In this document: piece by piece, positions 7,930 through 31,173 of the stretch
How positions within the stretch are numbered: the stretch's first letter is position 1
Layout of the letters: every line of letters begins with the position of its first letter
Assembly: GCA_017631035.1 (NCBI GenBank)
Contig: JAGBUB010000031.1
Span: 1 to 39,359 of the forward strand
DNA from: Alistipes sp.
Lineage (GTDB): Bacteria; Bacteroidota; Bacteroidia; Bacteroidales; Rikenellaceae
Length of the DNA stretch: 39,359 nucleotides
Direction of reading: 5' to 3'
Made by a program: the position numbers and the translations under genes
The notes under the pieces: generated by a model
What the model was told of the DNA's origin: nothing
The model's input: the letters and a program-made list of their open reading frames with translations, nothing else
Database searches by the model: none

Positions 7930-7949
7930 AACGAAAAAACCGATATACA

Positions 7950-8573: not shown

Positions 8574-8576
8574 CCT

Positions 8577-9359: not shown

Positions 9360-9398
9360 GGGTGAAATTTAAGTGCGTCTAAAATAAATTTATAACAT

Positions 9399-10148
9399 AT
9401 GGCACAGAAGAAAACATCTGAAGTTGATTACTCTATGCAGGAGAAGATTATGGCTCTTTACGAGTTGCAGAAAATCGACTCTCAGATCGACGAGATCAAC
9501 AAAGTGAAGGGAGAACTGCCCTTGGAGGTGCAGGATCTCGAGGACGAAATCGCAGGTTTGAATACTCGCATCGAGAACATTAATGGCGAGGTTGAGGAGT
9601 TCAACTCACTCACCAAGCAGCGTAAGCGCGAGATCGATCAGGCCAAGATTCAGATTTCTCACTACAAGGAGCAGCAGAACAACGTTCGCAACAACCGCGA
9701 GTATGATGCCATCACCAAGGAGATCGAGTATCAGGAGTTGGAGATCGAGTTGGCAGAGAAGCGTTTGAGAGAGTATTCTACCGCCATCAAGAACAAGAAG
9801 GCTCAGTTGGAGAGCGCCGAGGCAGTTGTTGCCGATCGTGGTATCGACTTGGCTGCAAAGAAGGGCGAGTTGGAGAGCATCGAGGCTGAGACAGCCGATC
9901 AGGTAGCAGCACTTGAGGCTAAGGCCGACAAGGCTAAGTCGAAGATTGACGAGCGCCTGCTTACAGCCTACAACCGTATCCGTCGCAGCGTGCGTAATGG
10001 TTTGGCAGTGGTGACTGTAAAGCGTGATGCTTGTGGTGGTTGCTTTAACCGCATTCCTCCTCAGCGTCAGGTAGATGTACGTCAGGGCAAGAAGCTCATC
10101 GTGTGTGAGTATTGCGGTCGTATCCTGGTAGCCGATGGCGAGGAGTAG
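9399..10148 (+). CDS. Coiled-coil protein with C-terminal C4 zinc ribbon
   Basis: The 249-residue protein is almost all long heptad-rich helix from about residue 12 to 195 (a Glu/Lys/Gln-rich coiled coil). It ends in a zinc ribbon with C212-x-x-C215 and C236-x-x-C239 (CGGCFNRIPPQ and CEYCGRIL). This is the DUF164/zf-RING_7 family. It is commonly beside nif3 genes in several phyla and has been linked to nucleic-acid or ribosome-related roles in some; its role here is not established. It has its own promoter within the preceding gene and a strong terminator after it, so it can be expressed separately. Confidence 0.88.
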   Translation: MAQKKTSEVDYSMQEKIMALYELQKIDSQIDEINKVKGELPLEVQDLEDEIAGLNTRIENINGEVEEFNSLTKQRKREIDQAKIQISHYKEQQNNVRNNREYDAITKEIEYQELEIELAEKRLREYSTAIKNKKAQLESAEAVVADRGIDLAAKKGELESIEAETADQVAALEAKADKAKSKIDERLLTAYNRIRRSVRNGLAVVTVKRDACGGCFNRIPPQRQVDVRQGKKLIVCEYCGRILVADGEE

Positions 10149-10176
10149 TTGGCTCGAGTAGAATTATCGAAACAGG

Positions 10177-10208
10177 GGTAGAATCAGTTGTGGTTCTACC
10201 CCTTTTTT
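10177..10208 (+). terminator. Terminator after the zinc-ribbon gene
   Basis: The stem GGGTAGAA/TTCTACCC has a 10-base loop and six T follow. It lies 28 bases past the stop and separates this unit from nadE. Confidence 0.88.
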
Positions 10209-10234
10209 AGTGAAAAATCACAAGGGATTATTCC

Positions 10235-10262
10235 TTTGTTTATAAAATAATTACTACCTTTG
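10235..10262 (+). promoter_or_regulatory. Promoter of the nadE-rnf unit
   Basis: TACCTTTG at 10255-10262 is a full -7 match. The nearest TTTG is at 10235-10238, only 16 bases upstream, so the -33 element is weaker or shifted. No other promoter is obvious between here and the end of the rnf genes. Confidence 0.6.
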
Positions 10263-10306
10263 CGGCGTATTTGTATTGGAATGTTATTTAACCATTTCAC
10301 CTTAAG

Positions 10307-14612: not shown

Positions 14613-14633
14613 CGAAAATAAAAGAAGAGAGAT

Positions 14634-15620
14634 ATGGCAAATAAATTTATTGTTGCGCCTGCACCTCATATGCACAATCCGCACTCGACACAGTCGTTGA
14701 TGCGCGATGTGATTTTGGCCTTGGTACCTGCTCTGCTGGTATCGGTCGTGGTGTATGGTTTGAGCGTACTCTACGTTACGGCTATTGCTGTAGCGAGTTG
14801 CGTAGTGGTGGAGTTCTTGATTCAGAAGTATCTTGTCAAGGGCAATCCCACCATCGGTAACCTGTCGGCTGTGGTTACAGGTCTTTTGCTTGCATTCAAC
14901 CTCCCCGCCAGCATTCCTTGGTGGATTATCGTTATCGGCTCGGTGGTTGCTATCGGTGTTGCGAAGATGACCTTCGGTGGCCTTGGTCACAACCCCTTCA
15001 ACCCTGCGTTGGTAGGTCGTGTGTTCCTGCTTATCGCTTACCCCGTGCAGATGACCTCATTCCCTGAAATTGAGCCCGTTATTGGCGGCATTGCCGATGC
15101 ATTCTCGGGTGCTACTCCTTTGGCAGCCATCAAGTCGGGTGCTATGTCGGTTACCGATGCTAACCTTATGACTATGTTCGGTGGCTTCACCTCTGGTTCT
15201 ATGGGTGAGCTCTCGGCTGCGGCTCTGCTTGTGGGTGGACTCTATATGTTGTGGCGTCGTGTTATCACTTGGCACATCCCCGTGGCTGTGTTGGGTTCGA
15301 TGGCAGCTTTCGCCTTTATCGTAGCCTTGATGCAGGGTGGTGGTGCTGAGTTGTATGCTCTGCCTTTGTTCCACCTCTTGGCTGGTGGTGCTATGCTCGG
15401 TGCAATCTTTATGGCAACCGACTATGTAACCTCGCCTATGACTACCAAGGGTATGGTTATTTATGGTGTAGGTATTGGTGTGATTACAATGGTTATCCGT
15501 TTGTGGGGTGCTTATCCCGAGGGTATGTCATTTGCAATCTTGTTGATGAATGCCGTTACACCTCTTATCAATAAGTATGTGAAGCCTCGCCGCTTCGGTG
15601 TAACAACAGCTAAAAAATAG
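14634..15620 (+). CDS. rnfD: Rnf electron-transport complex subunit D
   Basis: The 328-residue integral membrane protein has about nine to ten predicted helices. It carries the covalent FMN attachment motif D155-A-F-S158-G-A-T161 (ADAFSGATPLA), with Thr161 the expected attachment residue. It also has the conserved GGLGHNPFNPALVGR segment. RnfD is homologous to NqrB and takes part in ion translocation. It ends 12 bases before rnfG. Confidence 0.96.
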   Translation: MANKFIVAPAPHMHNPHSTQSLMRDVILALVPALLVSVVVYGLSVLYVTAIAVASCVVVEFLIQKYLVKGNPTIGNLSAVVTGLLLAFNLPASIPWWIIVIGSVVAIGVAKMTFGGLGHNPFNPALVGRVFLLIAYPVQMTSFPEIEPVIGGIADAFSGATPLAAIKSGAMSVTDANLMTMFGGFTSGSMGELSAAALLVGGLYMLWRRVITWHIPVAVLGSMAAFAFIVALMQGGGAELYALPLFHLLAGGAMLGAIFMATDYVTSPMTTKGMVIYGVGIGVITMVIRLWGAYPEGMSFAILLMNAVTPLINKYVKPRRFGVTTAKK

Positions 15621-15632
15621 GAGGACGGAGAT

Positions 15633-16277
15633 ATGAAGAGTACACTTTTTAATATGGTTGCCGTCCTGTTCACCGTAACCCTTATCGCTTCGGCTGGTGT
15701 GGGTGCAGTGAATATGATTACGGCTGATGCTATTGCCGAGGCTAACGCTGCGGCTACTACACAGGCTGTGTCGAATGTTCTGCCCGAGTTCGATAATACC
15801 GAGATCAGCGAGCAGACTATCGACGATATGACAATCACTGTATATACTGCAACCAATGCTGGCCAGACAGTAGGCTACGCCGTTGAGTCGATGACAAAGA
15901 ACGGTTTTGGTGGTGTTATCCGCCTTATGGTTGGCTTTGGTGCCGATGGCAAGATTCTTAACGTAAACGTATTGCAGCAGTCGGAGACTCCTGGTCTTGG
16001 TACCAAGATGGCCGACGAGGGCAACGCATTGCTTTCAAGCATTCAGAATAAGAATTCGTGGGAGATTGAGTTTAAGGTGAAGAAGGATGGCGGTGAGCTG
16101 GATGCTTTGACGGCTGCTACTATCTCTTCACGCGCCTATTACGAGGCTGTAGCTCGTGCCTACGAGGCTTATAAGGTAGCGTGTGGTTATCAGGAGTCAG
16201 CCGACAGCGTGTCGGGTGCTACTGCAACTGCCAACAATGCGGGCCAGCAGGCTCAGAAAGGAGGTCAGAATGAATAA
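15633..16277 (+). CDS. rnfG: Rnf electron-transport complex subunit G
   Basis: The 214-residue protein has one N-terminal membrane helix (about 8-30) and an extracytoplasmic FMN-binding domain, as in NqrC. The motif QQSETPGLGTKM is typical. At the usual flavinylation place it reads D157-A-L-T160-A-A-T163 rather than the common DxxSGAT; the Thr is kept. The C-terminal tail contains an exact D191-S-V-S194-G-A-T197. An AGGAGG Shine-Dalgarno sequence at 15619-15624 precedes the ATG. The last 8 bases overlap rnfE. Confidence 0.95.
   Translation: MKSTLFNMVAVLFTVTLIASAGVGAVNMITADAIAEANAAATTQAVSNVLPEFDNTEISEQTIDDMTITVYTATNAGQTVGYAVESMTKNGFGGVIRLMVGFGADGKILNVNVLQQSETPGLGTKMADEGNALLSSIQNKNSWEIEFKVKKDGGELDALTAATISSRAYYEAVARAYEAYKVACGYQESADSVSGATATANNAGQQAQKGGQNE
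16257..16265 (+). promoter_or_regulatory. Strong Shine-Dalgarno site for rnfE
   Basis: AAAGGAGGT lies inside the last codons of rnfG, 4 bases before the ATG at 16270. Such strong sites are rare in this phylum, and this one decides the rnfE start over upstream in-frame ATG codons. Confidence 0.75.
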
Positions 16278-16854
16278 GATGCAGATCATACTTAATGGTA
16301 TTTTGAAGAATAACCCCACCTTTGTGCTGGTGTTGGGTATGTGTCCTACGTTGGGTACTACCACCTCGGCCGTGAATGGTTTGGGTATGGGTGTGGCGAC
16401 TATGGCCGTGTTGATTATGTCGAACTTGGTTATCTCGCTCATCAAGAACTTTATCCCCGATAAGGTGCGTATCCCCGCATTTATCGTGGTTATCGCATCG
16501 TTCGTTACCATCATCCAGATGTTGATGCAGGCCTATGTGCCTTCGCTCTATGCAAGCTTGGGTGTGTTTATCCCCTTGATCGTAGTAAACTGTATCATCT
16601 TGGGTCGTGCCGAGGCCTTCGCGTCGAAGAATGGCGCTATGGACTCTATCCTCGATGGTGTGGGTATCGGCTTGGGCTTTACCATTGCGCTTACACTTAT
16701 TGGTGCTGTGCGTGAGATTTTGGGTAGCGGTGCTATCTTCGGTTTCTCGCTCGGTATTGCCGATTATATGCCTTTGGTATTCGTATTGGCTCCTGGTGCA
16801 TTCTTTGTGCTGGGCTATATGATGGTGTTGTTTAACAAATTAGCTAAGAAGTAG
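16270..16854 (+). CDS. rnfE: Rnf electron-transport complex subunit E
   Basis: The 194-residue integral membrane protein has six predicted helices and is homologous to NqrD. I chose the ATG at 16270 because of the strong Shine-Dalgarno site just before it and because the family begins with [16 protein letters not shown]. The upstream in-frame stretch is only rnfG read in another frame. The two conserved half-membrane cysteines are in LGMCPTLG and VVNCIILG. With the matching pair in RnfA they hold an iron centre within the membrane. It starts 8 bases before the rnfG stop and ends 2 bases before rnfA. Confidence 0.95.
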
Positions 16855-16856
16855 TT

Positions 16857-17435
16857 ATGGAGCTTTCATATTTCGCAATTATCATCGGTGCGATTTTCGT
16901 TAATAACGTTGTTTTCGCACAGTTCCTCGGTATCTGCCCCTTCCTGGGCGTATCGTCAAAGGTGAATACCTCGCTGGGTATGGGTGCTGCCGTAACCTTC
17001 GTTATGGCGTTGGCTTCGATTGTGGCGTGGTCTATCCAGACATTTATTCTTGTGCCCCTGCACATAGAGTATATGCAGACTATTGTCTTCATCCTCGTTA
17101 TTGCTGCGTTGGTGCAGATGGTAGAGATCGTGTTGAAGAAGGTATCGCCCTCATTGTATCAGGCATTGGGTATCTTCCTTCCCTTGATTACTACAAACTG
17201 TGCTGTGTTGGGTGTTGCAATCCTTATGATCCAGAAGGAGTTTAACCTCTTGCAGAGCTTTGTTTACTCGGTATCTACTGCAGTGGGTTTCGCTATGGCT
17301 TTGGTGCTCTTCGCTGGTATCCGCGAGCGTTTGGAGTTGGATGGTGTGCCCTCAGCATTGAAGGGTAATCCTATTGCACTTATCACTGCTGCTATCCTTG
17401 CAATGGCCTTTATGGGCTTCTCAGGCTTGGTTTAA
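16857..17435 (+). CDS. rnfA: Rnf electron-transport complex subunit A
   Basis: The 192-residue integral membrane protein has six helices and is homologous to NqrE. The cysteines in [10 protein letters not shown] and TTNCAVLG mirror those of RnfE and should complete the shared intramembrane iron site. The gene order rnfB-C-D-G-E-A is the standard one. RnfA ends the operon and a strong terminator follows 22 bases after the stop. The complex couples ferredoxin oxidation to NAD+ reduction and pumps Na+ or H+. Confidence 0.96.
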
Positions 17436-18038: not shown

Positions 18039-19691
18039 TTACTCGAGAGCCTCGTTGTACTGAGTCTCGTGCAAAGGAATAATCCATACCCAGTCGTTAG
18101 TTGCCTCAGCGTTAGGACCGATGGTCTTAGCGAAGTTAGCACCGAATGTACCACCGTCGATTGTAGCACGACGTGAGATAGAAGCACCGGTACGCTTCAA
18201 ATCGAACCAACCGTGACCCTCGCCCCACAACTCTGCACGACGATAGAGCATAATCTCCTCGATCAACTCATCACCAGTCTTAGTAGACTTAGTGTATTCG
18301 GGATCACGCTGTGAGTTAACTGCGAAGAGCAAGTCCTGAGCTGTAGCATAGTCGGGAGTAGCCTGCTTACACAAAGCCTCAGCCTGAGTAAGGTACATCT
18401 CAGCAGCACGCATATAAACTGAGTGGTGAACACCGGGAAGATCGAATACACCAAACTTGAACTGCTGGTAAGCTGCCTGATAACCGGGATAGTAACCAGT
18501 TGCAGAGATGTTTGCTGAAACGCCAGGAATAGAGAACATATAGTCCCAGATATCGTTTGCCAAAGCGTAACCTGCTTCTGTGTCTGTGTCGGGCTCGCAG
18601 TACTCGTTAAGGTTACCAGTTGCGAACAACTCGTCAATCTCCTCCTTAGAGTAACCCATCAAAGCGGGGTCAGCGAACAACTGACGACGAACATCAGTAG
18701 TTGCAATTGCGTCAGTCAAATCACGGTTACCAATGATGTTGTAGCCATTAGCACTGTAGTAACCATTGTAGCCGTAGTATGTACCATATGTGTAGTACCA
18801 CATATTCTCACTTGCGCTACCCCAGCCACCGAAGATCCATTCGTCGTTTGCTGTGTGGAAACCACCCTGGAACTCATCAGCTGTCATAACATCGTATGAG
18901 CTTGTAACCTCGTTAGCGCAAGAAGCTGCTGTCTCCCAATCCTCGCGGCAAAGAGCTGCACGTGCCTTAACACCGTAAGCCAAAGCCAAGCTGGGCTCGT
19001 AGAAGTTCTTAGCGCTCATACCAGACTGCTTGAACAATGTGATGGCATCGTCGCAATCCTGATAAATCTGAGTGTAGCACTCTGCCAATGTAGAGATGTC
19101 CTGATTTGTATCAGTGTACATACCCTCCTCGTTAACGTCGGTGTGAAGGCGAAGGATAACGCCATCAGAAGCACCATTGTTAGAGTCCATCCAACGCTTG
19201 CTGAAGATCTGTACCAAGTACTGGTAGCAGTAAGCACGATAAGTCAAACCCTGAGCCTTGTAGAATGCCTTCAAGTCCTCATCACCCTGTGCGTTCTCAA
19301 GCTGTGCAAGCATACGGTTTGCCTGACCAATAATCTGGTAGAGGAACCACCAAGAATATGCTGAGTAAGCAGCGTTGTTGTTAGTTGTAAGAGTCATATT
19401 AGCTGAGTTGTAACCACCGAAAGCAACACCTGACCAGTCGTTACCACACTCGTTACCCAACTTGCTCAACAGGTTCATCATACCGCAGTAACCCTGACCG
19501 TATGCACCCTGCTGGTAAACCATCAACAAGTTGATACCGTTAATATAAGAGCCGAAGTTCTCTACACTCGAAGTCAACTGACCAGCGTCAAGTGCGTTGG
19601 TAGGAGAAGTCTCGAGATAATCCTCCGAACAAGCCGTCATCACCATCGCACCGAGGACGAGGGCGGCAAAATATTTCATCAATTTTTTCAT
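18039..19691 (-). CDS. SusD/RagB family outer-membrane nutrient-binding lipoprotein (left pair)
   Basis: The 550-residue protein has a lipoprotein signal ending ALVLGAMVMTAC, with Cys21 as the lipid site, then EDYLETSPTNALDAG, the typical SusD opening. The C-terminal part has the conserved EIMLYRRAELWGEGHGWFDL block. SusD proteins sit on the cell surface over a SusC barrel and hold the substrate like a lid. The ligand cannot be deduced; no glycoside hydrolase or regulator is adjacent. It starts 22 bases after the left susC stop and ends with a terminator. It shows no close identity with the right-hand SusD, so the two pairs probably bind different ligands. Confidence 0.95.
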   Translation of the reverse strand: MKKLMKYFAALVLGAMVMTACSEDYLETSPTNALDAGQLTSSVENFGSYINGINLLMVYQQGAYGQGYCGMMNLLSKLGNECGNDWSGVAFGGYNSANMTLTTNNNAAYSAYSWWFLYQIIGQANRMLAQLENAQGDEDLKAFYKAQGLTYRAYCYQYLVQIFSKRWMDSNNGASDGVILRLHTDVNEEGMYTDTNQDISTLAECYTQIYQDCDDAITLFKQSGMSAKNFYEPSLALAYGVKARAALCREDWETAASCANEVTSSYDVMTADEFQGGFHTANDEWIFGGWGSASENMWYYTYGTYYGYNGYYSANGYNIIGNRDLTDAIATTDVRRQLFADPALMGYSKEEIDELFATGNLNEYCEPDTDTEAGYALANDIWDYMFSIPGVSANISATGYYPGYQAAYQQFKFGVFDLPGVHHSVYMRAAEMYLTQAEALCKQATPDYATAQDLLFAVNSQRDPEYTKSTKTGDELIEEIMLYRRAELWGEGHGWFDLKRTGASISRRATIDGGTFGANFAKTIGPNAEATNDWVWIIPLHETQYNEALE

Positions 19692-19713: not shown

Positions 19714-22700
19714 TTAGAGTTTGATGTTAAGACCAAATGTCCAAATGCGAGCAGCAACATATGTCTGATCCTGTGAACCAGAGAATGAGTACTGGGGGTT
19801 CAAACCGTCACGCTTTGTGAAGATGAAGGGGTTCTCAACGTTGAATGATACATTGATGTTGCTCAAATCAATAGCCTGAGCCCACTTCTTGGGAAGGTCG
19901 TATGAAAGGCCGATGTTCTTAACGATGAAGTAAGAAGCGTCAACCAACCAACGGTCTGATGCTGCATATGTGTAGTTTGAAGCAGCAGTATCATTACGAG
20001 GGAAGATGCTGTTTGAGATACGATCAGCTGAATCAGCACTCATACCAGCGGGAGCCGCTGTCCAAGAGTTCAAAATATCAGTGTGCAATGCCTGGGGACC
20101 CTTAAGGTAGGGGTACATCAAGCCACGGTATGTACCATCGTAGATCTTACCACCGATTGAGTATGAAGCCAATACGTTGAAGTGCAAGCCCTTCCATGAG
20201 AGGTTAGTCTGAACACCACCATATACCTTGGGCAATGCCTCACCTGACCAATCTTTCTTAGCGTAAGTAGTGTTGGTAGCATAGTATGTATCACCAATCT
20301 TGGTTGCATAGCCGTAGTATACCAAAGCATCAGCCAGATCGCCGTAATTTACATCATCCAATGTGTAGAGAGCATCACCGGTCATCTGATCAACACCCTG
20401 ATACTTGTACAACCAGAACTCGTACATTGAGTGACCCTCCTGGAAGCGGTAGTTACCAGAGATGTAACCGTTACCCTCCTCAGCAGTTGTGGGCAAAGTC
20501 TTAATCTTGTTCTTCACGAATGAAGCGTTAGCACCAATGCTCCACTTGAAATCGCGCTTCTTGAAGATGTCAACGTTTACAGCAACCTCAATACCTGAGT
20601 TGTCAACAGAACCGAGGTTCTGAGTCAATGAAGGATAAGTTGCATTGGGCTTCAAAGTACCATTAGAAGAAGAGTAGCTCTTTGAGAAGATAAGGTCCTT
20701 AGAACGCTTGTTGAAATAATCCAAAGTTACGTCAACAGTATCCCACAAACGAGCATCGAGACCGATGTCGAATGACTGAGTTGTCTCCCACTTCAAACCT
20801 AAGTTAGCGAACTGTGACTGTGAGTAAGCACCGTTACCGCCGTTTGTAGAGATTACAGAGTACAGACCCTTTGATGCAAAGTAACCTGCTGATGAGTCGT
20901 TACCTACCTCACCATAAGATGCACGAACCTTCAAGAAGTCAACCCACTGAGCATCCTCCATCCACTTCTCAGAAGAGATAACCCATGAACCACCGATTGA
21001 CCAGAAGTTACCCCAACGATTATCCTTAGAGAAACGAGAAGAACCGTCGCGACGGAATGAAGCCTCAACGAAGTAACGCTCGTCGAAGTTATAACGTGCA
21101 CGAGCCAAATAAGACTCTGAACGATACTGGTTGATATAACCATCGATGTACTGCATAGTAGAGAAGCCATCGAATACACCAGTCTGAAGTACCTCACCAA
21201 CCTTCATTGTGTAGTCATAGTTGTATCGGTACTCGTAGTTCTCGTGACCTACCATTGCGTCAACAGTGTGCTTGCCAAATGTCTTAGCATAAGAGAGCTG
21301 CTGCTGCAAGTTGATAGTGTTGTACTCGTAAGTATCCTTGCTCAAACGACCACCGTTAGAAGCACCGTCACCAATGTTCTGGTTGTTGTAGGCCTTAGAT
21401 GTCAAGTGACGACGATCGATAGAACCACGAAGAGTGAACTGGAAGTCCTTCAAGAAAGTGATAGTAGTGTAAGCAGAAGTATTCAAAGTAGTACGATAGT
21501 TGCGATCGTAGTCTGCGCGCAACTCGTAAGCGATGTTACGGTTGTCGAGGTACGATGCGTAGTTCCACTGTGCCTCACCATTCTCATCGCGTACGATAGC
21601 ACCATTCTCATCGTGCTCGTAGTAAGGATATACGGGAGCCTGCATACGTGCTGAGTAGAAGGGGTTAGCATAGTATGAAGAGTATGCTGTAGCACGGTAG
21701 TTCTGAGTCTGCAATGAACCAGAGAGGTTTACACCAGCCTTGAACCACTTCTTGGGAGTGAAGTTAGCAGCTACACGAGCAGTAGTACGCTCGAAACCTG
21801 TGTTGATAACGTAACCCTCCTCGTTCAAGTAGTTAACTGAAGCGAAAACGTCGTAGTTGTTGCCAGCAGCATCCAACTGAATGTTGTACTCACCACGGTA
21901 ACCAGTCTTCTCAATAGCGTCGAACCAGTTAAGGTCAGTATAGCCATCCTTAACAGCAGCCTGAACCTTACCAGTTGCGGGGTTGATGATAGCATCGTCA
22001 GCAGCATCGTAGATGTTGTTCTTGATGCTTGTACGGATGAACTGAGAGTTGGTGTAGTTACGAACCCACTCATCACCATACTTAGCGCCGTATGACTGAG
22101 AATAGTCGTTATATGCTGTATTCCACATAACCTCCATCCAGGGGTCTGCTGTCAATACATCGTACTCCTTCAAACCGCGAGTGTAAACACCCTGCTTAGT
22201 AGATACGTTAACGTTCAACTTACCGCTCTGCTTACCCTTCTTAGTAGTGATAAGTACAACACCCTGAGCTGCACGTGAACCGTAAAGAGCTGCAGAAGCT
22301 GCATCCTTCAAGATTGACATTGACTCGATATCGGCGGGGTTGATGTCGCTCATATTACCAGCGAAGATGTTACCGTCAACAACGTAAAGGGGAGCGTTGT
22401 TACCGTTGATTGAACCGAAACCACGGATCAAGATGTCGGTAGAAGCACCGGGCTCACCATATGAGCTGCTTACCTGCACACCAGCTGAAGCACCCTCGAG
22501 TGCGCTGGTTACGTCAGAAGTAGTACGCTGCTCAATTACGTCAGACTTAACCATTGTCACTGAACCGGTCACCGCCTCCTTAGAAGAGGTACCGTAAGCT
22601 ACGACAACGACGTCGTCGATTGACTGAGTATCGTCCTGAAGAACGATCTCGATAGAGGTACGAGCACCCACAGCAACTGTCTGAGTCTCATAACCGATGA

Positions 22701-22926
22701 ACGAAACCACGAGATTGGAATTAGCGGGAGCCTCCAATCGGAATGATCCGTCCGCACCTGTAGTGGCACCTACGTGAGAACCCTCAATAACAACGGTAGC
22801 ACCGATGATAGCCTGACCGGCAGAGTCCTTAACCGTACCACTCACTTGTCTGTTCTGTGCAAATGCCACAGCGGCAACTGCCAAAACAGCGAAGATAGAA
22901 AGTACAATTTTCCTAACCATAAGCAT
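19714..22926 (-). CDS. SusC/RagA family TonB-dependent outer-membrane transporter (left pair)
   Basis: The 1070-residue protein has a signal peptide (about 1-23, ending VAFAQNRQ), a carboxypeptidase-like regulatory domain (about 24-110), a TonB-box-like DDVVVVAYGT, a plug domain (about 120-240) with VYVVDG-type and ILKDAASAALYGSRAAQGV motifs, then a large beta-barrel to the C-terminal LNIKL. The start could be either of two ATGs (22926 or 22920). The first 28 codons are identical at the DNA level to those of the right-hand susC. A well-formed promoter lies just inside the adjacent invertible segment, so in this orientation this pair is the expressed one. Confidence 0.96.
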   Translation of the reverse strand: MLMVRKIVLSIFAVLAVAAVAFAQNRQVSGTVKDSAGQAIIGATVVIEGSHVGATTGADGSFRLEAPANSNLVVSFIGYETQTVAVGARTSIEIVLQDDTQSIDDVVVVAYGTSSKEAVTGSVTMVKSDVIEQRTTSDVTSALEGASAGVQVSSSYGEPGASTDILIRGFGSINGNNAPLYVVDGNIFAGNMSDINPADIESMSILKDAASAALYGSRAAQGVVLITTKKGKQSGKLNVNVSTKQGVYTRGLKEYDVLTADPWMEVMWNTAYNDYSQSYGAKYGDEWVRNYTNSQFIRTSIKNNIYDAADDAIINPATGKVQAAVKDGYTDLNWFDAIEKTGYRGEYNIQLDAAGNNYDVFASVNYLNEEGYVINTGFERTTARVAANFTPKKWFKAGVNLSGSLQTQNYRATAYSSYYANPFYSARMQAPVYPYYEHDENGAIVRDENGEAQWNYASYLDNRNIAYELRADYDRNYRTTLNTSAYTTITFLKDFQFTLRGSIDRRHLTSKAYNNQNIGDGASNGGRLSKDTYEYNTINLQQQLSYAKTFGKHTVDAMVGHENYEYRYNYDYTMKVGEVLQTGVFDGFSTMQYIDGYINQYRSESYLARARYNFDERYFVEASFRRDGSSRFSKDNRWGNFWSIGGSWVISSEKWMEDAQWVDFLKVRASYGEVGNDSSAGYFASKGLYSVISTNGGNGAYSQSQFANLGLKWETTQSFDIGLDARLWDTVDVTLDYFNKRSKDLIFSKSYSSSNGTLKPNATYPSLTQNLGSVDNSGIEVAVNVDIFKKRDFKWSIGANASFVKNKIKTLPTTAEEGNGYISGNYRFQEGHSMYEFWLYKYQGVDQMTGDALYTLDDVNYGDLADALVYYGYATKIGDTYYATNTTYAKKDWSGEALPKVYGGVQTNLSWKGLHFNVLASYSIGGKIYDGTYRGLMYPYLKGPQALHTDILNSWTAAPAGMSADSADRISNSIFPRNDTAASNYTYAASDRWLVDASYFIVKNIGLSYDLPKKWAQAIDLSNINVSFNVENPFIFTKRDGLNPQYSFSGSQDQTYVAARIWTFGLNIKL

Positions 22927-22929
22927 TAA
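22811..22929 (-). repeat. Inverted repeat over the susC start, left copy
   Basis: 22847-22929 is identical for 83 bases, in inverted orientation, to 24754-24836. With two mismatches the match extends to 119 bases (22811-22929). It covers the start codon, signal peptide and first residues of the mature protein. Further in, the genes diverge to ordinary paralogue levels. Confidence 0.95.
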
Positions 22930-22959
22930 TTTTATTTGTACATATAAATAATAATAAGT

Positions 22960-22982
22960 ATATTTTCACTCTAATGTAAAAA
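22960..22982 (-). repeat. 23-bp inverted repeat, left copy (candidate crossover site)
   Basis: Read toward the left susC it is TTTTTACA, TTAGAG, TGAAAATA and a final T, identical to 24705-24727 in inverted orientation. The outer 8-base arms are imperfect palindromes of each other (6 of 8 positions) around a 6-base asymmetric spacer. That is the usual form of a tyrosine-recombinase core site. Confidence 0.85.
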
Positions 22983-22990
22983 TACAACTG

Positions 22991-23021
22991 CAAAGATAAG
23001 AATTTAATCTTTTATTATCAA
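22991..23021 (-). promoter_or_regulatory. Promoter of the left susC, inside the invertible segment
   Basis: On the minus strand TTG (23021-23019), a 20-base gap and TATCTTTG (22998-22991) match the Bacteroidetes consensus fully. The start of transcription should fall near 22984, at the edge of the 23-bp repeat. The whole promoter is therefore inside the invertible segment and nearly the whole leader outside it. Confidence 0.85.
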
Positions 23022-23302
23022 AAAAATTTAATATAAAATTAACATTGTTAAAAAAATGCTAATGCTGTGGCTCAGCAAGTTAAGTTTTGTAAGCAAAGTT
23101 TGCGAAATTATGACAGTTCGCAATGAGTTTGGATGTGGTAATTATGCTGAATACATTTTTATTCATTAGTCACAGCTGTCATAATGCCCAAATATTGCTA
23201 ATAAACATTGCTTTTTGGCCATAATCTAGGCTTTTTTGCACCCATTCCGCGCTGACAGGTTACAATTTTCTATGCCTGAAACGACCAAATACAGACATCT
23301 CT
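23022..23302. other. Noncoding stretch within the invertible segment, structured
   Basis: No reading frame of note. It is AT-rich between the susC promoter and the recombinase stop. A hairpin at 23100-23123 has a 7-bp stem TTGCGAA/TTCGCAA and a loop ATTATGACAG. The exact complement of that loop, CTGTCATAAT, occurs at 23176-23185. An AT-rich palindrome TTAACATTGTTAA (23039-23051) could act as a weak terminator. It may hold accessory recombinase sites or an RNA. Confidence 0.5.
23100..23185. repeat. Hairpin whose 10-base loop has a perfect complement downstream
   Basis: The stem is 23100-23106 with 23117-23123, the loop is 23107-23116, and the loop complement is 23176-23185. As RNA this could form a pseudoknot-like or alternative fold. 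As DNA it is a pair of 10-bp inverted sites plus a 7-bp palindrome. Confidence 0.6.
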
Positions 23303-24523
23303 TCAGACGTAATTTTCAAAATACATATCAATTTGGTCTGATACTCGGGTCATTTCTGAATTTATTGTGGTTTTTAGCACCTTGGCATATATTTGGGTGG
23401 TTTTAATGTCAGTATGTCCCAACATTCGGCTCACAATCTCGATAGGCACACCATAGGCCAGAGTAACCGTTGTGGCAAACGTGTGTCGAGCAGTGTGAAA
23501 TGTCACTCTTTTGGTTATGCCTGCGCGCGAGGCGATGCTTTTAATGAGTTTATTGCACCAACAATTTGTAGGCAGGGGAAATATCGGTGCATTATTATTC
23601 CGCGAATAGCGCTTCTGTAATATACGCAACGGCAATTGCAGGAGCGGAACGTCGACCGAGGTGCGGGTCTTTTTTCTGCGGATAACGATGTGCCACTGCT
23701 CGCCAATCTTAACAACATCATCATACGTAATTCTTTTTATATCAGCATAGGCCAATCCGGTGAAGCAACTGAACAGGAAGGCTTCTAGCACGATACTCTC
23801 CATTTCGTTTCGAGGGAGTTCATTTGCCATAGAGCGCAACTCCTCCTTCATCAAGAAACAGCGCTGCGAACTCTCGCTATGGAGCTGATAGCCCGTAAAT
23901 GGGTTGATGGGGATCTCTCCTTGTGTAACAGCCAGCATCAAAATATGCTTAAAAGCAGTGAGGTAGGTGCGTGCAGTATTGACGTTGCATCCAGCCTCTA
24001 CACTAAGGTAGCGATGGAAGTCATATATAAACTCTCTATCAACCTTCCTCAGGGGTAGATCGGTCGCCCGCATATGCGACATTATAAAGTTTTGAAGGTG
24101 GTTGCATACATACCTATATTTATATAAAGTACTCGATTGACGAGTTATTCCAACCATTTTCTCAAAATCCTGATTGTGGCGGTTAAAGAAGTTCACAATG
24201 CCCTCCGATGTGTTATGTCTACCCTGATGCATACGTCGCAACTCTTGCGGCGAGGGCTCCATTTGCGAACGTAGCAGTGTTTGATAATCTTCGTGAAGCG
24301 AATAGTAGATCTTGTCGAGTAATGCGTTTGTGCGTCGCGCAACCTCATCACGCCCTTTTACCCGTCTGCGGATGTTGTTCCATCGAAACTTCTCGACCGA
24401 GAGATGCGTTGAGAAGGTGCACGTTTTCTTGTTGATGGATATGCGACAGAAAATAGGCAGTTTGCCACATTTGAGAGGCTGCTGCTTCTTCACATAGAAG
24501 AATATGCTAAAGTAATGTCTCAT
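23303..24523 (-). CDS. Tyrosine recombinase (Bacteroidales integrase family)
   Basis: I chose the ATG at 24523 (406 residues). The family opens with a short strand-rich domain like MRHYFSIFFYVKKQQPLKC, and the open stretch upstream reads as non-native and overlaps palindromes. The order is an arm-type N-terminal domain (about 1-95), a SAM-like core-binding domain (about 105-210) and the catalytic domain (about 220-400). Catalytic features are the Lys in RRKKTR, HTARHTF (His-x-x-Arg), LGHTDIKTTQIYAKV with the second His and the nucleophilic Tyr. At the first catalytic Arg position the sequence is FTGLAYAD, an Ala, as in several Bacteroidetes integrases such as IntDOT that lack this Arg. Location between inverted repeats argues that it acts on them. 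Confidence 0.92.
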   Translation of the reverse strand: MRHYFSIFFYVKKQQPLKCGKLPIFCRISINKKTCTFSTHLSVEKFRWNNIRRRVKGRDEVARRTNALLDKIYYSLHEDYQTLLRSQMEPSPQELRRMHQGRHNTSEGIVNFFNRHNQDFEKMVGITRQSSTLYKYRYVCNHLQNFIMSHMRATDLPLRKVDREFIYDFHRYLSVEAGCNVNTARTYLTAFKHILMLAVTQGEIPINPFTGYQLHSESSQRCFLMKEELRSMANELPRNEMESIVLEAFLFSCFTGLAYADIKRITYDDVVKIGEQWHIVIRRKKTRTSVDVPLLQLPLRILQKRYSRNNNAPIFPLPTNCWCNKLIKSIASRAGITKRVTFHTARHTFATTVTLAYGVPIEIVSRMLGHTDIKTTQIYAKVLKTTINSEMTRVSDQIDMYFENYV

Positions 24524-24704
24524 AAAACGTATGGGATTAAGTAATAAAATGAAACCTACGTGACAAAAGGGCAGTCTGCTATATAACTGAGATATAGCAG
24601 AAAATGTTATGCGACCAAGGTCACAAATAGGTAACATTTTACAGTATTTAGGGCATAAATTAGGTTGTGCACCCCTTTCATAGGCAGATCTAAGGGGTGT
24701 TTAG
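24524..24704. other. Recombinase upstream region with clustered inverted repeats
   Basis: No gene. It holds the inverted repeats at 24576-24600 and 24601-24640 and the terminator-like hairpin at 24670-24699. I find no full TAnnTTTG box on either strand. The closest on the plus strand is TAgtTTTT at 24702-24709, with no -33 partner. The recombinase promoter is therefore not identified and the right susC appears to lack one. Confidence 0.6.
24576..24640. repeat. Two adjacent inverted repeats upstream of the recombinase
   Basis: The first is CTGCTATAT/ATATAGCAG (24576-24584 and 24592-24600), 9 bp with a 7-base loop. Directly after it, AAAATGTTA/TAACATTTT (24601-24609 and 24632-24640) encloses the smaller palindrome GACCaaGGTC (24613-24622). 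Possible operators for recombinase control or accessory recombination sites. Confidence 0.65.
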
Positions 24705-24709
24705 TTTTT
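24670..24709 (+). terminator. Terminator-like hairpin facing the right susC
   Basis: The perfect 8-bp stem CACCCCTT/AAGGGGTG (24670-24677 and 24692-24699) has a 14-base loop. On the plus strand TTTAGTTTTT follows, whose last five T belong to the 23-bp repeat. On the minus strand no T run follows, so it is directional toward the right susC. Confidence 0.7.
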
Positions 24710-24727
24710 ACATTAGAGTGAAAATAT
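24705..24727 (+). repeat. 23-bp inverted repeat, right copy (candidate crossover site)
   Basis: Identical to the reverse complement of 22960-22982. It lies 29 bases before the right susC ATG; the left copy lies 33 bases before its ATG. Flanking bases differ on both sides, so the identity ends sharply. Confidence 0.85.
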
Positions 24728-24753
24728 CATTGTTTTTTTATGTATCAATAAAT

Positions 24754-24872
24754 TTAATGCTTATGGTTAGGAAAATTGTACTTTCTATCTTCGCTGTTTT
24801 GGCAGTTGCCGCTGTGGCATTTGCACAGAACAGACAGGTGAGCGGTACGGTTAAGGACTCTGCCGGTCAGGC
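24754..24872 (+). repeat. Inverted repeat over the susC start, right copy
   Basis: 83 identical bases (24754-24836), then a match with only two mismatches to 24872, compared with the left copy at 22811-22929. It codes for the signal peptide and the start of the mature protein. Confidence 0.95.
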
Positions 24873-27753
24873 CGTTGTTGGCGCTGCTATCGTAGTTGAG
24901 GGTTCTAACGTAGGTACCACCACCGACGTGAACGGAGCATTCCGCATTGAGGCTGCTGCTAATGCGAATCTGATTGTTTCGTTTATCGGCTATGAGGCAC
25001 AGACAGTTGCTGTGGGTAGCCGTACTTCAATTGACGTCGTTCTTGCTGACGACTCTCAGTCTATCGACGAGGTTGTGGTAACAGGTTACGGCGTACAGCG
25101 TAAGGTATCGTTTACTGGTGCTGCATCAGTAATCGGCGAGGAGTTGCTTGACAACAAGACCGACGCCAACTTCGTTAAGTCGTTGGAGGGTAGTGTTGCC
25201 GGTGTTCAGATGAACAACTCTAACAGTATGCCCGGTGCTTGGGGTGAGATTTTCGTACGTGGTCAGGGTTCGCTCTCTTCTGGTAGCGCGCCTTTGTACG
25301 TTGTCGATGGTATGCCCGTTAACTCTGACGTTGACGGTCTTCAGACAAACCTCTACCTCGATCCTATGGCTGCTATCAACCCCGCTGATATCGAGTCAGT
25401 AACCGTATTGAAGGATGCTGCTGCAACTTCTATCTATGGTGCTCGTGCTGCTAACGGTGTTATCATCGTTACTACTAAGAAGGGTACCGAGGGTCGTGTT
25501 AACGTTAATGTTGACATCAAGCAGGGTGTGACTTCAATCGCTAACCACAACATGAACTTCGCTAATGCATCAGAGTCTATGGACTTGTTTGCTCGTGGTT
25601 ATGCTGCAGCTTATGGTGCAGATTATGACGAGGCTTATGATTATTTGAGTGGTGTATACGGTTGGGATGGTAAGTCATCATACGACTGGATGGATGCTGT
25701 TACTCGCGAGGGTTACTACCAGGACTACAACGTTAACATTCAGGGTAAGACTGGTAACACTGGTTACTTTGCCAGCCTTGGTTACCTCGATAGCGAGGGT
25801 ATCGTTATCAACTCTGATATGACTCGTTTCACTGGCCGTTTGAACTTGGATTCTAAGTTTAAGATTGTTACCGTTGGTGTTAACTCTTCTTACAGCTACT
25901 CTATCCAGAACGGTTTCTCTCAGTCAACAGGTGGTTCAATGACTAGCCCCATCGTAGGTGCGTCAACTCAGATGAAGCCTTTCTATCCTTTCTACAACGA
26001 GGATGGTACTTATAACACTACATCAGCAACATACAACCCCTTGGCTGTATGGGATGAGAAGCTTGGTGATATGAGCCGCGTTTGGAACCAGACTATCAAC
26101 ATCAATCCTTATGTACAGCTCGACTTCGGTTACGGTATCTACGCTAAGTCTACTTTGGGTGTAAATATCTCTAACCAGCGTGAGTATCAGTACTGGGGTG
26201 CTATTTACAATGCACAGGGTGTTAGCTACAATGGTTTGGGTCAGCAGTACAACACCAACAACCACGTTATCACTTGGAACAACGTATTGGGCTGGAACTA
26301 CACATTCGGTGAGAAGCACGACGTAAGCTTCTTGGTAGGTCAGGAGATGCAGCACAAGATGTCAGGCTACGAGTACTTGAGCGGTAATGACTTCCCCTTC
26401 GCAACTAGCGGTATGCGTGATTTGTCAACCGTAGGTACTTGGGGCGATTCTGAGTACTACACATCTGAGGCTAAGTTGGCTTCATACTTCCTCGATGCTC
26501 ACTACTCATTCAACGATCGTCTTTACATCTCTGGTTCATTCCGTCGTGATGGTTCATCAGTATTCGGTGCTAACCACCGTTGGGGTAACTTCTGGTCAGC
26601 AGGTGCTAAGTATCGTTTCAGCGAGGACCTCTTCGCCGACAACGAGATCTTCACTAACGCAGCTTTGCGTGCATCTTATGGTACAGTAGGTAACCAGGAT
26701 ATTGGTTGGTATGCAGCTCGTGGTTTCTATGTATCTGGTTACAACTACGCAGGTGTTCCGGGTATGGTTCCCACATCAATCTCTAACCCCGACCTTACTT
26801 GGGAGGTATCAAAGAAGTTGGATATCGGTATCGACCTTTCTTTGTTGGATCGCATCCACTTCACTTTGGATTACTATAACGAGCTTACCGACGATGCTCT
26901 CTACAGCGTGCCTTTGTCTTTGACTACAGGTATGAGCTCTGCAATGCAGAACATCGGTTCTATCCGCAACAGCGGTTGGGAGTTGTCAGTTAACGCTAAC
27001 ATTATCAACCGTGGCGATTTCGCTTGGAATGCTTACGCAAACTTCTCTTGGAACAAGAACGAGGTTGTTCGTTTGAACGGCGAGCCTATCGAGGGTACTA
27101 TTACCATCGTTGAGGAGGGTCGTCCTTACAACCAGTTCAAGATGAAGGAGTGGGCAGGTGTTGATTATGAGACTGGTCTTCCTTTGTGGTACAAGAACGA
27201 GTCAGGCGAAGAGACTACTTCAGACTTCAACGAGGCTGCTAAGCGCTATGTAGGTTCTGCTGAGCCTAAGATGGTAGGTGGTTTCGGTACAAGCCTTAAC
27301 TGGAAGGGTCTTGACTTCAACGCTTCATTCACATTCCGTACAGGTGGTAAGGTATACGACTACGGTGCAGCATTTACCGGTTTCGGTATGGCATTCCGTA
27401 CTCCCCACAAGGACATTGTTTACGATTCTTGGACTCCCGAGAACAAGGATGCTAAGCACCCCGAGTATATCTATACTGACCCCTATTCAACAACTGACGA
27501 CTCTTCACGTTTCCTCTATGATGGTGACTACTTGAAGCTCAGCAACATTTCATTGGGTTACACATTGCCTAAGAAGTGGACTCGTAAGTTTGCAGTTGAG
27601 AAGTTGCGTGTATACGTATCAGCTGATAACCTCTATACATTCCGCGCTAAGAACTTCGTTGGTTACACCTCTGAGACCTACTCTGACGGTTATATCTCTT
27701 GGCAGTATCCTTCAACCAAGACTATCACTGGTGGTGTGCAGATTACATTCTAA
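24757..27753 (+). CDS. SusC/RagA family TonB-dependent outer-membrane transporter (right pair, probably off)
   Basis: The 998-residue protein begins at the ATG matching the left susC (24757; 24763 is an alternative). The frame is open further upstream, but that part runs through the 23-bp repeat and is not coding. Domains are as in the left copy: a signal peptide (about 1-23), a carboxypeptidase-like domain (24-110), a TonB-box-like DEVVVTGYGVQ, a plug with VTVLKDAAATSIYGARAANGV, then the barrel, ending GGVQITF. Beyond the first 110 residues it is clearly different from the left SusC. No promoter is visible before it and a terminator-like hairpin lies just upstream, so it should be silent in this orientation. 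susD follows after 41 bases. Confidence 0.95.
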   Translation: MLMVRKIVLSIFAVLAVAAVAFAQNRQVSGTVKDSAGQAVVGAAIVVEGSNVGTTTDVNGAFRIEAAANANLIVSFIGYEAQTVAVGSRTSIDVVLADDSQSIDEVVVTGYGVQRKVSFTGAASVIGEELLDNKTDANFVKSLEGSVAGVQMNNSNSMPGAWGEIFVRGQGSLSSGSAPLYVVDGMPVNSDVDGLQTNLYLDPMAAINPADIESVTVLKDAAATSIYGARAANGVIIVTTKKGTEGRVNVNVDIKQGVTSIANHNMNFANASESMDLFARGYAAAYGADYDEAYDYLSGVYGWDGKSSYDWMDAVTREGYYQDYNVNIQGKTGNTGYFASLGYLDSEGIVINSDMTRFTGRLNLDSKFKIVTVGVNSSYSYSIQNGFSQSTGGSMTSPIVGASTQMKPFYPFYNEDGTYNTTSATYNPLAVWDEKLGDMSRVWNQTININPYVQLDFGYGIYAKSTLGVNISNQREYQYWGAIYNAQGVSYNGLGQQYNTNNHVITWNNVLGWNYTFGEKHDVSFLVGQEMQHKMSGYEYLSGNDFPFATSGMRDLSTVGTWGDSEYYTSEAKLASYFLDAHYSFNDRLYISGSFRRDGSSVFGANHRWGNFWSAGAKYRFSEDLFADNEIFTNAALRASYGTVGNQDIGWYAARGFYVSGYNYAGVPGMVPTSISNPDLTWEVSKKLDIGIDLSLLDRIHFTLDYYNELTDDALYSVPLSLTTGMSSAMQNIGSIRNSGWELSVNANIINRGDFAWNAYANFSWNKNEVVRLNGEPIEGTITIVEEGRPYNQFKMKEWAGVDYETGLPLWYKNESGEETTSDFNEAAKRYVGSAEPKMVGGFGTSLNWKGLDFNASFTFRTGGKVYDYGAAFTGFGMAFRTPHKDIVYDSWTPENKDAKHPEYIYTDPYSTTDDSSRFLYDGDYLKLSNISLGYTLPKKWTRKFAVEKLRVYVSADNLYTFRAKNFVGYTSETYSDGYISWQYPSTKTITGGVQITF

Positions 27754-27794: not shown

Positions 27795-29276
27795 ATGAAA
27801 AAATCGATATTGAAAATTTTTGCTGTACTTGCTCTTGTTGGCGGCGTGTCGAGTTGTGGTAACGGTTACCTCGAGACAGATTACTCTCGTGGTATCGACA
27901 TCGACACAGGCCTCAACTCTGTAGCCACTATCGGTACAGCTTTGAACGGTACCTACTACCGTTTGTTCTACTACGGTTTTGCTGGTAACTATGCTATCTC
28001 AATTGGTGATGTTCCTACCGATTTGACATACTGGAACTCTAAGACCGGTCACTGGGATAAACTCTATCAGTACACTCACGTTGATACTGACTCTTACTTG
28101 AGCGGTATTTGGAACTATGGTTACAAGGTAGTTGACAACTCAGCTCGTATCATCAAGGCTGCTAAGGAGATGTATGAGGGTGCTACAGAGAACGAGCAGG
28201 CAGAGTTGGATCTCTATCTTGCTGAGGCTTACGCTTTGCGTGGTTACGCTTCTTTGATGCTTACCAATATCTTTGGTCATCAGATCAAGGTTGCTGGTCA
28301 GGACTTCTCTAACGAGTTGGGTATCGTAGTAGTAGATGAGCCCGTTGCTGCTTACGCTGAGGTTCAGCGTTCTACAGTAGGTCAGAGCTATGCTGCTATT
28401 TTGTCAGATTTCCAGGATGCTCTTACTCACTTCGCTGCTGCTGGTGGCGACCGTGGCGACCTCAACTACTTCAACGTAGCTGCTGTTCAGGGTTTGATGG
28501 CACGTACTTACCTCTATATGGAGAACTGGGGTGCTGCTAAGAAGTCTGCTGCTGATGCTTTGGAGACTGCAGGTATTACATCATTGGCTTACACTGCTTC
28601 TGACTACGCTGCTTTGTATGCTTCAGGTGTTTCTAACAACGAGAGCTTCTTCGCTTTGGCTATTGACTCTAACAACAACTGGTCTGCAAACTCTTGCGGT
28701 ACTTTGTGGTCAACTTATAACTTTAGCCCTAGCCCCAAGTTGCTCGCTATGTATGGTGAGAACGATGTTCGTAACGCTATCTTTGAGTGGGATGCATTGT
28801 CAACTCCTGACGTGCCCATCTTCAAGGCTGGTAAGTTCGCTCACAAGTCATCAGGCAACTCAGCTTACGGTACTAACTATATCGTAAACGCTCCTGAGAT
28901 GTTCTTGATCATTGCTGAGGCTGAGGCTCAGAGCAACACTGATATGACTCCCGCACAGGAGGCTTTGTTGACAGTTGCAAAGCGTAACACTGACATCACT
29001 TCAGTTGATGATCTTCCCTCAACTAAGGAGGAGATCTTGTCATTCATCCAGGACGAGCGCGCTCGCGAGTTGTTCCAGGAGGGTCTGCGTCTTTACGACT
29101 TGCGTCGTTGGGGTGTTAAGGCAAGCGTGACAGCTTATAAGGCTCCCGCTGTTGATTTCACCTTCAACAACTATGAGATTTCTAGTCTCGTTTATCCTAT
29201 CCCCGCATCAGAGATTAACGCTGGTTACGGTGTAGTACAGAACGACACTTGGTCATCAGTTCGTCCTAAGAGATAA
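27795..29276 (+). CDS. SusD/RagB family outer-membrane nutrient-binding lipoprotein (right pair)
   Basis: The 493-residue protein has a lipoprotein signal ending LALVGGVSSC, with Cys21 as the lipid site, then NGYLETDYSRG. The C-terminal region has the SusD block ERARELFQEGLRLYDLRRWG and ends in the typical YPIPASEINAGYG. It is the surface lid of the right SusC. Sequence differs strongly from the left SusD, including length (493 against 550), so a switch would change ligand or surface antigen. A strong terminator follows. No enzyme or regulator gene accompanies the pair. Confidence 0.95.
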   Translation: MKKSILKIFAVLALVGGVSSCGNGYLETDYSRGIDIDTGLNSVATIGTALNGTYYRLFYYGFAGNYAISIGDVPTDLTYWNSKTGHWDKLYQYTHVDTDSYLSGIWNYGYKVVDNSARIIKAAKEMYEGATENEQAELDLYLAEAYALRGYASLMLTNIFGHQIKVAGQDFSNELGIVVVDEPVAAYAEVQRSTVGQSYAAILSDFQDALTHFAAAGGDRGDLNYFNVAAVQGLMARTYLYMENWGAAKKSAADALETAGITSLAYTASDYAALYASGVSNNESFFALAIDSNNNWSANSCGTLWSTYNFSPSPKLLAMYGENDVRNAIFEWDALSTPDVPIFKAGKFAHKSSGNSAYGTNYIVNAPEMFLIIAEAEAQSNTDMTPAQEALLTVAKRNTDITSVDDLPSTKEEILSFIQDERARELFQEGLRLYDLRRWGVKASVTAYKAPAVDFTFNNYEISSLVYPIPASEINAGYGVVQNDTWSSVRPKR

Positions 29277-29418: not shown

Positions 29419-31173
29419 CTACTCGGGCTTAACCAACGAGATAAACAACTCATCGAGCTGAGCCTGATCAATTGTCGAAGGTGCATCGAGCATCACATCG
29501 CGGCCTGCGTTGTTCTTGGGAAATGCGATGAAGTCGCGGATAGACTCCGAGCCTCCGAAGAGAGAACACAAGCGGTCGAAACCGAATGCCAAACCACCGT
29601 GAGGAGGCGCACCGAACTTAAACGCGTTCATCAGGAAGCCGAACTGCTCCTGAGCCTTCTCGGGTGTGAAGCCCAAGATCTTGAAGATAAGAGCCTGCAA
29701 CTGTGCGTCGTGGATACGGATTGAACCACCACCGATCTCTGTGCCATTACATACGAAGTCATATGCGTTAGCGCGCACGCGACCGGGATCGCTCTCAAGG
29801 TAGGGAACATCCTCGGGCTTAGGCGAGGTGAAGGGGTGGTGCATAGCGTAGTAACGCTCTGTCTCATCGTCCCACTCGAACATCGGGAAGTCAACAATCC
29901 ACAACGGAGCAAACTTCTTGGGATCACGCAAGCCCAAAAGTTCTGCAACGTGCAGACGCAAGGCGCAGAGCTGTGTGAGAGCCTTGAACTTCTTGCCACA
30001 CAATACGAGCATAAGGTCGCCATTCTGTGCACCCATACGCTCGGCAATAGCAGCCAAATCCTCTGCTGAGAAGAACTTATCGATAGACGACTTGAGGTTA
30101 CCCTGCTCGTCTTTGCGAATCCATACCAAACCCTTGGCACCCACCTGCGGACGCTTAACGTAGTCGGTCAGGGCGTCAATCTGCTTGCGAGTGTAGCCTG
30201 CGCAACCTGTTGCGGCGAAACCTACAACGTACTCGGCATCGTCAAATACGGGGAATGAGTGGCCGTGAGCGAGGTCGGTGATGTCGTGGAACTCCATACC
30301 GAAACGCAAATCGGGCTTATCTGAACCATACTTCTCCATAGCCTCAATCCACGGCATACGCTGGAAAGGCTCCGAGAACTCTACGTTCATAACATCCTTG
30401 AACATATACTTTGCCCAACGCTCGAAGATCTCCAAAACATCCTCCTGCTCTACGAACGACATCTCGCAGTCGATCTGAGTAAACTCGGGCTGACGGTCAG
30501 CGCGGAGGTCCTCATCGCGGAAGCAGCGTACAATCTGGAAGTAGCGGTCGTAACCTGCAACCATCAACAACTGCTTCAGAGTTTGGGGCGACTGCGGAAG
30601 AGCGTAGAACTGGTTGGGGTTCATACGGCTGGGTACAACGAAGTCGCGCGCACCCTCAGGTGTAGAGCCCACCAGGTAGGGAGTCTCAATCTCGAGGAAT
30701 CCCTCCTTGTCGAGGAATGTGCGGATTGCGTGTGCCATACGGTGGCGCAACTCCATATTGCGCTGCAAGGGAGGACGGCGAAGGTCGAGGTAGCGATACT
30801 TCATACGAAGGTCGTCGCCACCGTCAGAGTTCTCCTCGATAGTAAAGGGAGGAGTCTGAGCCTCGTTGAGAATCTTAATCGATGAGGTAGCCACCTCTAT
30901 GTCGCCCGTAGGCATCTTCGGATTTTTTGATGAACGCTCGATAACGGTACCCGTAACCTGCAACACAAACTCGCGACCGAGAGCTGATGCCACTTCGCGT
31001 GTTTCGGCGGGCGAGTTCTCCTCTACAACGATCTGTGTCAGACCATAACGGTCGCGCAAGTCGATAAAGGTCATCGCACCAAGATTACGCACTTTCTGTA
31101 CCCAACCGGCCAGAGTTACGCTTTGGCCTACGTTGTTGATTCTGAGTTCACCACAAGTATGACTTCTGTACAT
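29419..31173 (-). CDS. aspS: Aspartate-tRNA ligase
   Basis: The 584-residue protein is of bacterial AspRS type. An N-terminal OB-fold anticodon-binding domain (about 1-105, with [20 protein letters not shown]) leads to the class II catalytic core with motif 2 [16 protein letters not shown] and motif 3 [10 protein letters not shown]. The bacterial GAD insertion lies between them (about 290-420). It charges tRNA-Asp in the cytoplasm. Whether it also charges tRNA-Asn cannot be told from the sequence alone. It diverges from tadA. Confidence 0.97.

Follow-up and report, generated by a model that had tools for sequence, protein, structure and literature searches.

The nutrients, and perhaps also the phages and antibodies, that a gut Bacteroidota cell encounters depend in part on its SusC/SusD receptors. 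Two recombinases are useful points of reference for inversion: Tsr0667, a member of the tyrosine recombinase family, and Salmonella Hin, a serine recombinase whose alternative flagellin is controlled via a repressor. In the region EE shufflon of Bacteroides fragilis, inverted repeats lie at the susC start codons and one promoter serves alternative SusC/SusD pairs; from strain to strain, divergent pairs also replace one another at the locus (PMC5729914). In B. fragilis, three SusC/SusD clusters and nine other regions are targets of Tsr0667 (PMC4747536). TonB/SusD cluster inversions in the PVR of Bacteroides intestinalis are often flanked by a dedicated recombinase, and transcription at the CPS loci of that species starts within the proximal repeat (PMC8375218). 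Among described invertons, group 131 lies close to genes for TonB-dependent receptors and SusD (PMC11892184), and SusC-proximal orientations differ in IBD (PMC10939037).

Here we describe a locus in Alistipes that is very likely a self-contained site-specific inversion switch, with its own recombinase and a single promoter for two receptor pairs. It resembles the B. fragilis shufflon in having repeats at susC starts, one promoter for alternative pairs, and pair replacement. In the shufflon as described, however, large gene-bearing segments invert behind the promoter (PMC5729914), whereas in Alistipes the genes are fixed and the promoter and recombinase move. Tsr0667 serves many regions (PMC4747536); the Alistipes repeat was found only as its two arms, in an assembly that is 57% complete. 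Bacteroidota invertons share with the Alistipes locus the inverted repeats, a Bacteroides-type promoter and receptor genes downstream, but five inverton examples measure ~0.2-0.7 kb (PMC11892184); the Alistipes unit is 1.77 kb long, contains the recombinase and has a receptor pair on either side. Entire gene clusters invert in the B. intestinalis PVR with the recombinase flanking them (PMC8375218), unlike the Alistipes arrangement of an internal recombinase and fixed genes. The Hin switch is like the Alistipes locus in that the recombinase gene lies within the inverting segment (PMC5903667). In the Hin switch one alternative is controlled via a repressor, whereas both alternatives appear to be directly driven in Alistipes.

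A first-pass annotation of this DNA had called the unit unusual. That holds in part: dedicated recombinases that invert SusC/SusD loci are already known from Bacteroides, and the novelty of this locus is a promoter and recombinase that travel as one while both gene pairs stay put. We found no description of the Alistipes arrangement in the open-access literature, a scope outside which most subscription papers lie. The class may be under-reported, since one survey dropped invertible regions containing or overlapping coding sequence (PMC8748976) and short-read analysis may overlook long inversions (PMC10939037).

The window, by which we mean the whole stretch of 39,359 nucleotides that was analysed, lies on a 117.6-kb contig of a MAG (1.25 Mb, 57% complete). 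The two divergent susC-susD operons sit between rnfC-D-G-A and a tRNA synthetase gene. Features of the window are as follows.

13254-17435: Rnf operon; rnfC-D-G-A lie left of the switch.
18039-19691, minus strand: SusD1, 550 aa, matching PF14322 and PF07980.
19714-22926, minus strand: SusC1, 1070 aa, TIGR04056 at 790 bits (cut-off 368); ON as assembled.
22847-22929, minus strand: SusC1 5' arm, a perfect inverse match of 83 nt to the SusC2 5' arm (24754-24836, plus strand).
22960-22982, plus strand: left arm of the inverted repeat, ATATTTTCACTCTAATGTAAAAA, perfect over 23 bp, beside the promoter; putative recombination site.
22983-24704: putative invertible segment, 1722 bp between the arms; homologous segments were found inverted in relatives.
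22991-23022, minus strand: strict Bacteroidota promoter, TTTG-N20-TATCTTTG, the only strict match in the segment, reading left into SusC1.
23303-24523, minus strand: tyrosine recombinase, 406 aa, with Arm-DNA-bind_5, SAM_5 and Phage_integrase domains.
24669-24700, plus strand: terminator-like hairpin and T run (-14.1 kcal/mol, z -1.76) at the promoterless end, toward the OFF pair.
24705-24727, minus strand: right arm of the inverted repeat, exact reverse complement of the left arm (23/23 identical).
24757-27753, plus strand: SusC2, ~996 aa, TIGR04056 at 799 bits (cut-off 368); OFF as assembled.
27795-29276, plus strand: SusD2, 493 aa, matching PF07980 and PF14322.
29419-31173: class-II tRNA synthetase gene right of the switch, of the aspartyl type by its GAD domain.

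The first-pass annotation had described a perfect 23-bp inverted repeat enclosing 1722 bases between divergent susC-susD operons, a tyrosine recombinase and one full-consensus outward promoter (left end only) within it, and two complete receptor pairs. Each of these elements was recovered. The arms are exact reverse complements; across 200 order-1 Markov shuffles of positions 22901-24800 the longest perfect inverted repeat was 15 bp. With up to three mismatches allowed, the 23-mer occurs in the host assembly (57% complete) only as these two arms, and no matches to it were obtained in viral contigs. The left start codon lies 33 nt from the repeat and the right one 29-35 nt, so a full promoter cannot fit outside the segment; as in invertons, the promoter lies between the inverted repeats. 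Inverted similarity extends outward into the susC genes (22592-22948 and 24735-25091, 83%), a feature absent from the earlier annotation. That annotation also placed a terminator on the flipping segment. The hairpin and T run are indeed present, but were not among the calls of a consensus scan; a terminator here is plausible, not strong. For the sequence that separates recombinase and promoter, folding was no better than that of shuffled copies (z -0.88).

The recombinase start was placed at ATG 24523 because relatives start there, and a listed 444-aa frame from upstream position 24637 was set aside. The protein matches PF00589 (Phage_integrase) at 65.8 bits against a cut-off of 27.1, and residues R283, K285, H343, R346, H370 and Y379 are invariant in 14/14 aligned recombinases. 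The usual box-I arginine is missing (TGL[AS][YF]), which we take to be a likeness to IntDOT. NCBIfam tyrosine recombinase models did not reach their curated cut-off (best 77.4 bits vs 220), and PADLOC returned no match that would indicate a defence role. Both SusC proteins pass TIGR04056 and both SusD proteins match the SusD Pfam models; for SusC2 the listed GTG start at 24697 was dropped in favour of ATG 24757 or 24763. The nearest solved structures are SusC homologues and RagA for the window SusCs and assorted SusD proteins for the SusDs, and no substrate could be named from this comparison.

Related loci were surveyed across the genus. The window recombinase protein alone gave no match as a query against named genomes, and an alignment query was needed to find matches there. 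A recombinase match at E <= 1e-40 is present in 96 of 180 Alistipes genomes. We examined 79 recombinase neighbourhoods (mostly the best among the matches listed; L191 was excluded) for a diverging SusC start within 1.5 kb on both sides of the recombinase. This two-sided layout was found in 18 of the 79, in 18 genomes, and in the window, which places the toggle layout in at least 19 of 180 Alistipes genomes. A single such SusC occurs at six loci, five of them at contig ends (L038, L052, L148, L173 and L175); the sixth, L036, lies inside its contig and may be a one-sided switch. The other 55 neighbourhoods have no adjoining divergent SusC, some of them being cut by contig ends. In a tree of 50 of 80 recombinases (30 were left out), all 19 toggle recombinases fall among 34 rows behind a 100/100 branch. 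The other 15 of these rows are the six one-sided loci, seven recombinases flanked by a SusD-side gene and a regulator, and two others. The toggle loci form no separate clade within the 34 rows (9 label changes).

For the comparison of promoter position across the 19 loci, the recombinase and not the promoter served to define the segment ends. The 3' end of the recombinase holds the best promoter in 19/19, which reads outward toward one susC and scores 10/10 in 12 loci, 9/10 in six and 8/10 in one (L181), and the last 200 nt of the opposite end never score above 8/10. A score of at least 9 is thereby reached at 18/19 recombinase 3' ends vs 0/19 other ends (Fisher p = 1.1e-9). L037 has an extra strict match within its segment, reading inward. 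From the end of the -7 box to the T-rich core of the repeat there are 7-9 nt in all 18 measurable loci; L037 was left out of this count, as the core pattern did not fit. No strict consensus promoter for the recombinase itself was found in the 19 loci, where the best candidates match 6-9 of 10 positions (8/10 in the window, 9/10 in L033 and L133). At the level of sequence, the shared layout and the coupling of promoter to recombinase are apparent from this comparison.

Other arrangements were seen in and around the lineage. At L047, L048, L050, L136, L174, L176 and L179, lineage recombinases lie between a SusD-side gene and a response-regulator gene, presumably PorX-like from the start of its protein. 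One of these seven, in L218 (G104), belongs to a toggle variant with a promoter-only segment of ~0.5 kb between divergent susC genes (L218:16450-17283) with long inverted arms (22+83+74 bp); its recombinase, of the same lineage, lies outside the segment (L218:9505-10701), beyond one susCD operon. Another lineage member, L040:7682-9433 (G013), has a 19-bp repeat and a promoter and no adjoining SusC. Head-to-head susC genes ~100 bp apart occur at L214:5227-5357 (G051) and match only from about codons 64 and 84; either a deletion or inverted 5' ends that collapsed during assembly would account for this. In G147 (L034, L221) the switch is also near rnf, aspS and a TPR gene, yet on the opposite side of aspS, and three further genomes (L035, L036, L033/L220) have one or two neighbourhood genes in common with the window. 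In a wider search, of which the best 80 of at least 583 loci were considered (L053 and L054 being L033 and L034 again), divergent SusC genes directly around the recombinase were seen outside Alistipes only in L061. This locus (L061:1340-2740) comes from a sheep-omasum Bacteroidales MAG; its start codons are marked by a 33-bp inverted repeat, and no promoter in it scores above 8/10.

Flipping was proposed in the first-pass annotation to hand the promoter from one pair to the other, with related genomes expected to carry the opposite orientation. Two species pairs with orthologous receptor pairs are inverted in just this way, and the inversion, the breakpoints and the one-ended promoter (19/19) all agree with such a hand-over. 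In the clearest pair, L041 (G154) and L042 (G158), the two receptors correspond at 97% and 99%, the recombinases are 95% identical, and the states are opposite. By blastn, 7010-7920 is collinear at 98.5%, 7898-9662 is inverted at 88.2%, and 9640-10800 is collinear at 98.3%; the overlaps, 7898-7920 and 9640-9662, are exactly the 23-bp repeats. The receptor 5' regions are collinear and the inner segment alone is inverted, so the receptor genes do not change place as they do in a shufflon. In the second pair, L043 (G179) and L138 (G137), receptors are 95.5% and 96.7% identical and recombinases 73%; the matching flanks (87.7% and 90.6%) stop at the inner repeat ends, and the interior is inverted at 72.7%. 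L049 (G152) is in the state of L041, and L051 and L133 are in one state. When receptors with 85% identity or more were compared between loci, 9/16 comparisons show opposite states and 7/16 the same, the comparisons not being independent. The nearest relative of the window, L033, has a recombinase 59% identical and a SusC1 ortholog (86%) that is OFF there vs ON in the window; its second receptor differs from that of the window, and the two are therefore not a clean inversion pair. Comparison of sequences thus finds both orientations, as expected of an inverton, between related species. Inverted repeats can be misassembled, and the host assembly is a MAG; an inverted interior that is 12% divergent between species would be hard to put down to misassembly.

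We propose that the segment's own recombinase brings about recombination between the two 23-bp repeats and so inverts the 1.77-kb unit, in which one strong promoter of the Bacteroidota type sits at the 3' end of the recombinase gene. This promoter would fire through the repeat into SusC1-SusD1 or, after inversion, into SusC2-SusD2. Since it serves one side per orientation, one pair at a time would have a promoter, and we infer from this that flipping in this species would make transcription of the pairs exclusive. With the -7 box 7-9 nt before the repeat core, crossover would fall close to where transcription begins, leaving each pair nearly all of its own leader. That position is probable given that CPS promoters of B. 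intestinalis are described as starting inside the proximal repeat (PMC8375218). The benefit would be bet-hedging of surface receptors.

The two susC genes of a locus are also alike at their 5' ends. In the window the SusC1 and SusC2 proteins are 35% identical, while the first 30 codons of their genes agree at 98% of nucleotides and 15/15 fourfold sites, with most of the rest at ~50%; over these codons SusC1 is less like its own ortholog (89%) than like SusC2. L046 shows perfect inverted identity across 350 bp. Within loci (15 pooled, four near-copies left out), fourfold sites of codons 1-30 agree in 141/191 cases vs 1300/2379 beyond codon 110 (p = 2e-7) and vs 172/365 in a between-locus control of 40 ON/OFF pairs from different loci (p = 1e-9). 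SusC 5' ends tend to be homogenised within a locus. The case is weakened by later codons, where within-locus agreement is also above the control (0.46-0.58 vs 0.40-0.44), an effect to be expected from shared codon usage, and by codons 31-110, where agreement is not raised overall (264/510). Little homogenisation is seen in L041, L042, L044 and L049 (56-57% in the first 30 codons). A general step in SusC identity at codon 110 was considered and dropped on alignment evidence.

This likeness bears on other ways to explain the locus. Homologous recombination at the inverted susC 5' arms, and not the recombinase, might drive inversion, and the perfect arms of up to 350 bp in L046 and the homogenised 5' ends on the whole would suit such a route. 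The segment is nonetheless inverted between L041 and L042, where the susC genes are only 56-57% identical over the first 30 codons and no perfect inverted repeat exceeds 23 bp, and a single recombinase lineage is present at all 19 loci; we think this route improbable. It would be harder still to regard the repeats as shared leaders of duplicated divergent susC genes and the integrase as an inserted mobile element. The 5' homology does run beyond the repeat, and related integrases occur in apparent mobile elements within the genus (L134, L137 and L180), but those integrases lie across the 100/100 branch from the toggles, the promoter is inside the segment in 19/19 loci, and the segment is inverted between relatives with its breakpoints in the repeats. 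We give this reading almost no weight.

The segment might instead have inverted once and now be locked in this species, a frozen relic whose repeats persist merely as leader sequence. The recombinase lacks a strict promoter, and locking does seem to happen in the family: the L042 (G158) recombinase (8158-9375) has an in-frame stop at codon 160, so that this copy may be broken and perhaps now locked, or else the assembly is in error. As L042 is one half of the clearest inversion pair, the stop also weighs slightly against the switch reading. The other 18 of the 19 toggle recombinases have no stop in the matched part (the N-terminal part is unaligned in L162 and L181). In the window, by contrast, the arms are 23/23 identical, the recombinase frame is intact with its conserved residues, and the susC genes match at 98% over the first 30 codons vs ~50% elsewhere, suggesting recent exchange. 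A relic is accordingly unlikely in our judgement, and an inversion switch run by its own recombinase is the reading we retain.

The receptor operons themselves may be replaceable. L041 and L044 have a common outer flank (92-95%) and are also alike over 9.5 kb that take in the segment, the B receptor (98.6%) and sequence beyond it. Their A-side susCD operons differ, with SusCs 34% identical and a SusD-family gene after each. The outer break lies at most ~150 nt past the SusD stop and the inner break after ~33 SusC codons, where near-identity ends; a junction near codon 111, where the blastn match ends, was dropped because the alignment falls off sharply after ~33 codons. A 4.9-kb SusC1-SusD1 block, which begins at the inner repeat edge and runs to the SusD1 end, is common to the window and L033, and their second pairs differ. 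One clean case (L041/L044) and one suggestive case (window/L033) suggest that susCD operons are exchangeable cassettes. L045/L177 are more mosaic, and L138/L181 have a common receptor pair beside a different recombinase; neither fits the simplest version of this idea.

We tentatively suggest, with slightly less than even confidence, that the Alistipes switch is both a toggle and a docking site, a two-slot changer in which the 5' ends at a locus stay alike and whole operons are swapped on one side through recombination within them, while the promoter, the recombinase and the other pair remain. If this is true, fast toggling via inversion would be combined with slow reloading of the slots via homologous replacement, and operon exchange at a fixed site would give a hint of how receptor repertoires get refilled. 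With a single locus in two defined states and a recombinase whose removal could lock it, this compact unit, which would force the cell to choose one receptor or the other, would also be a clean system for study.
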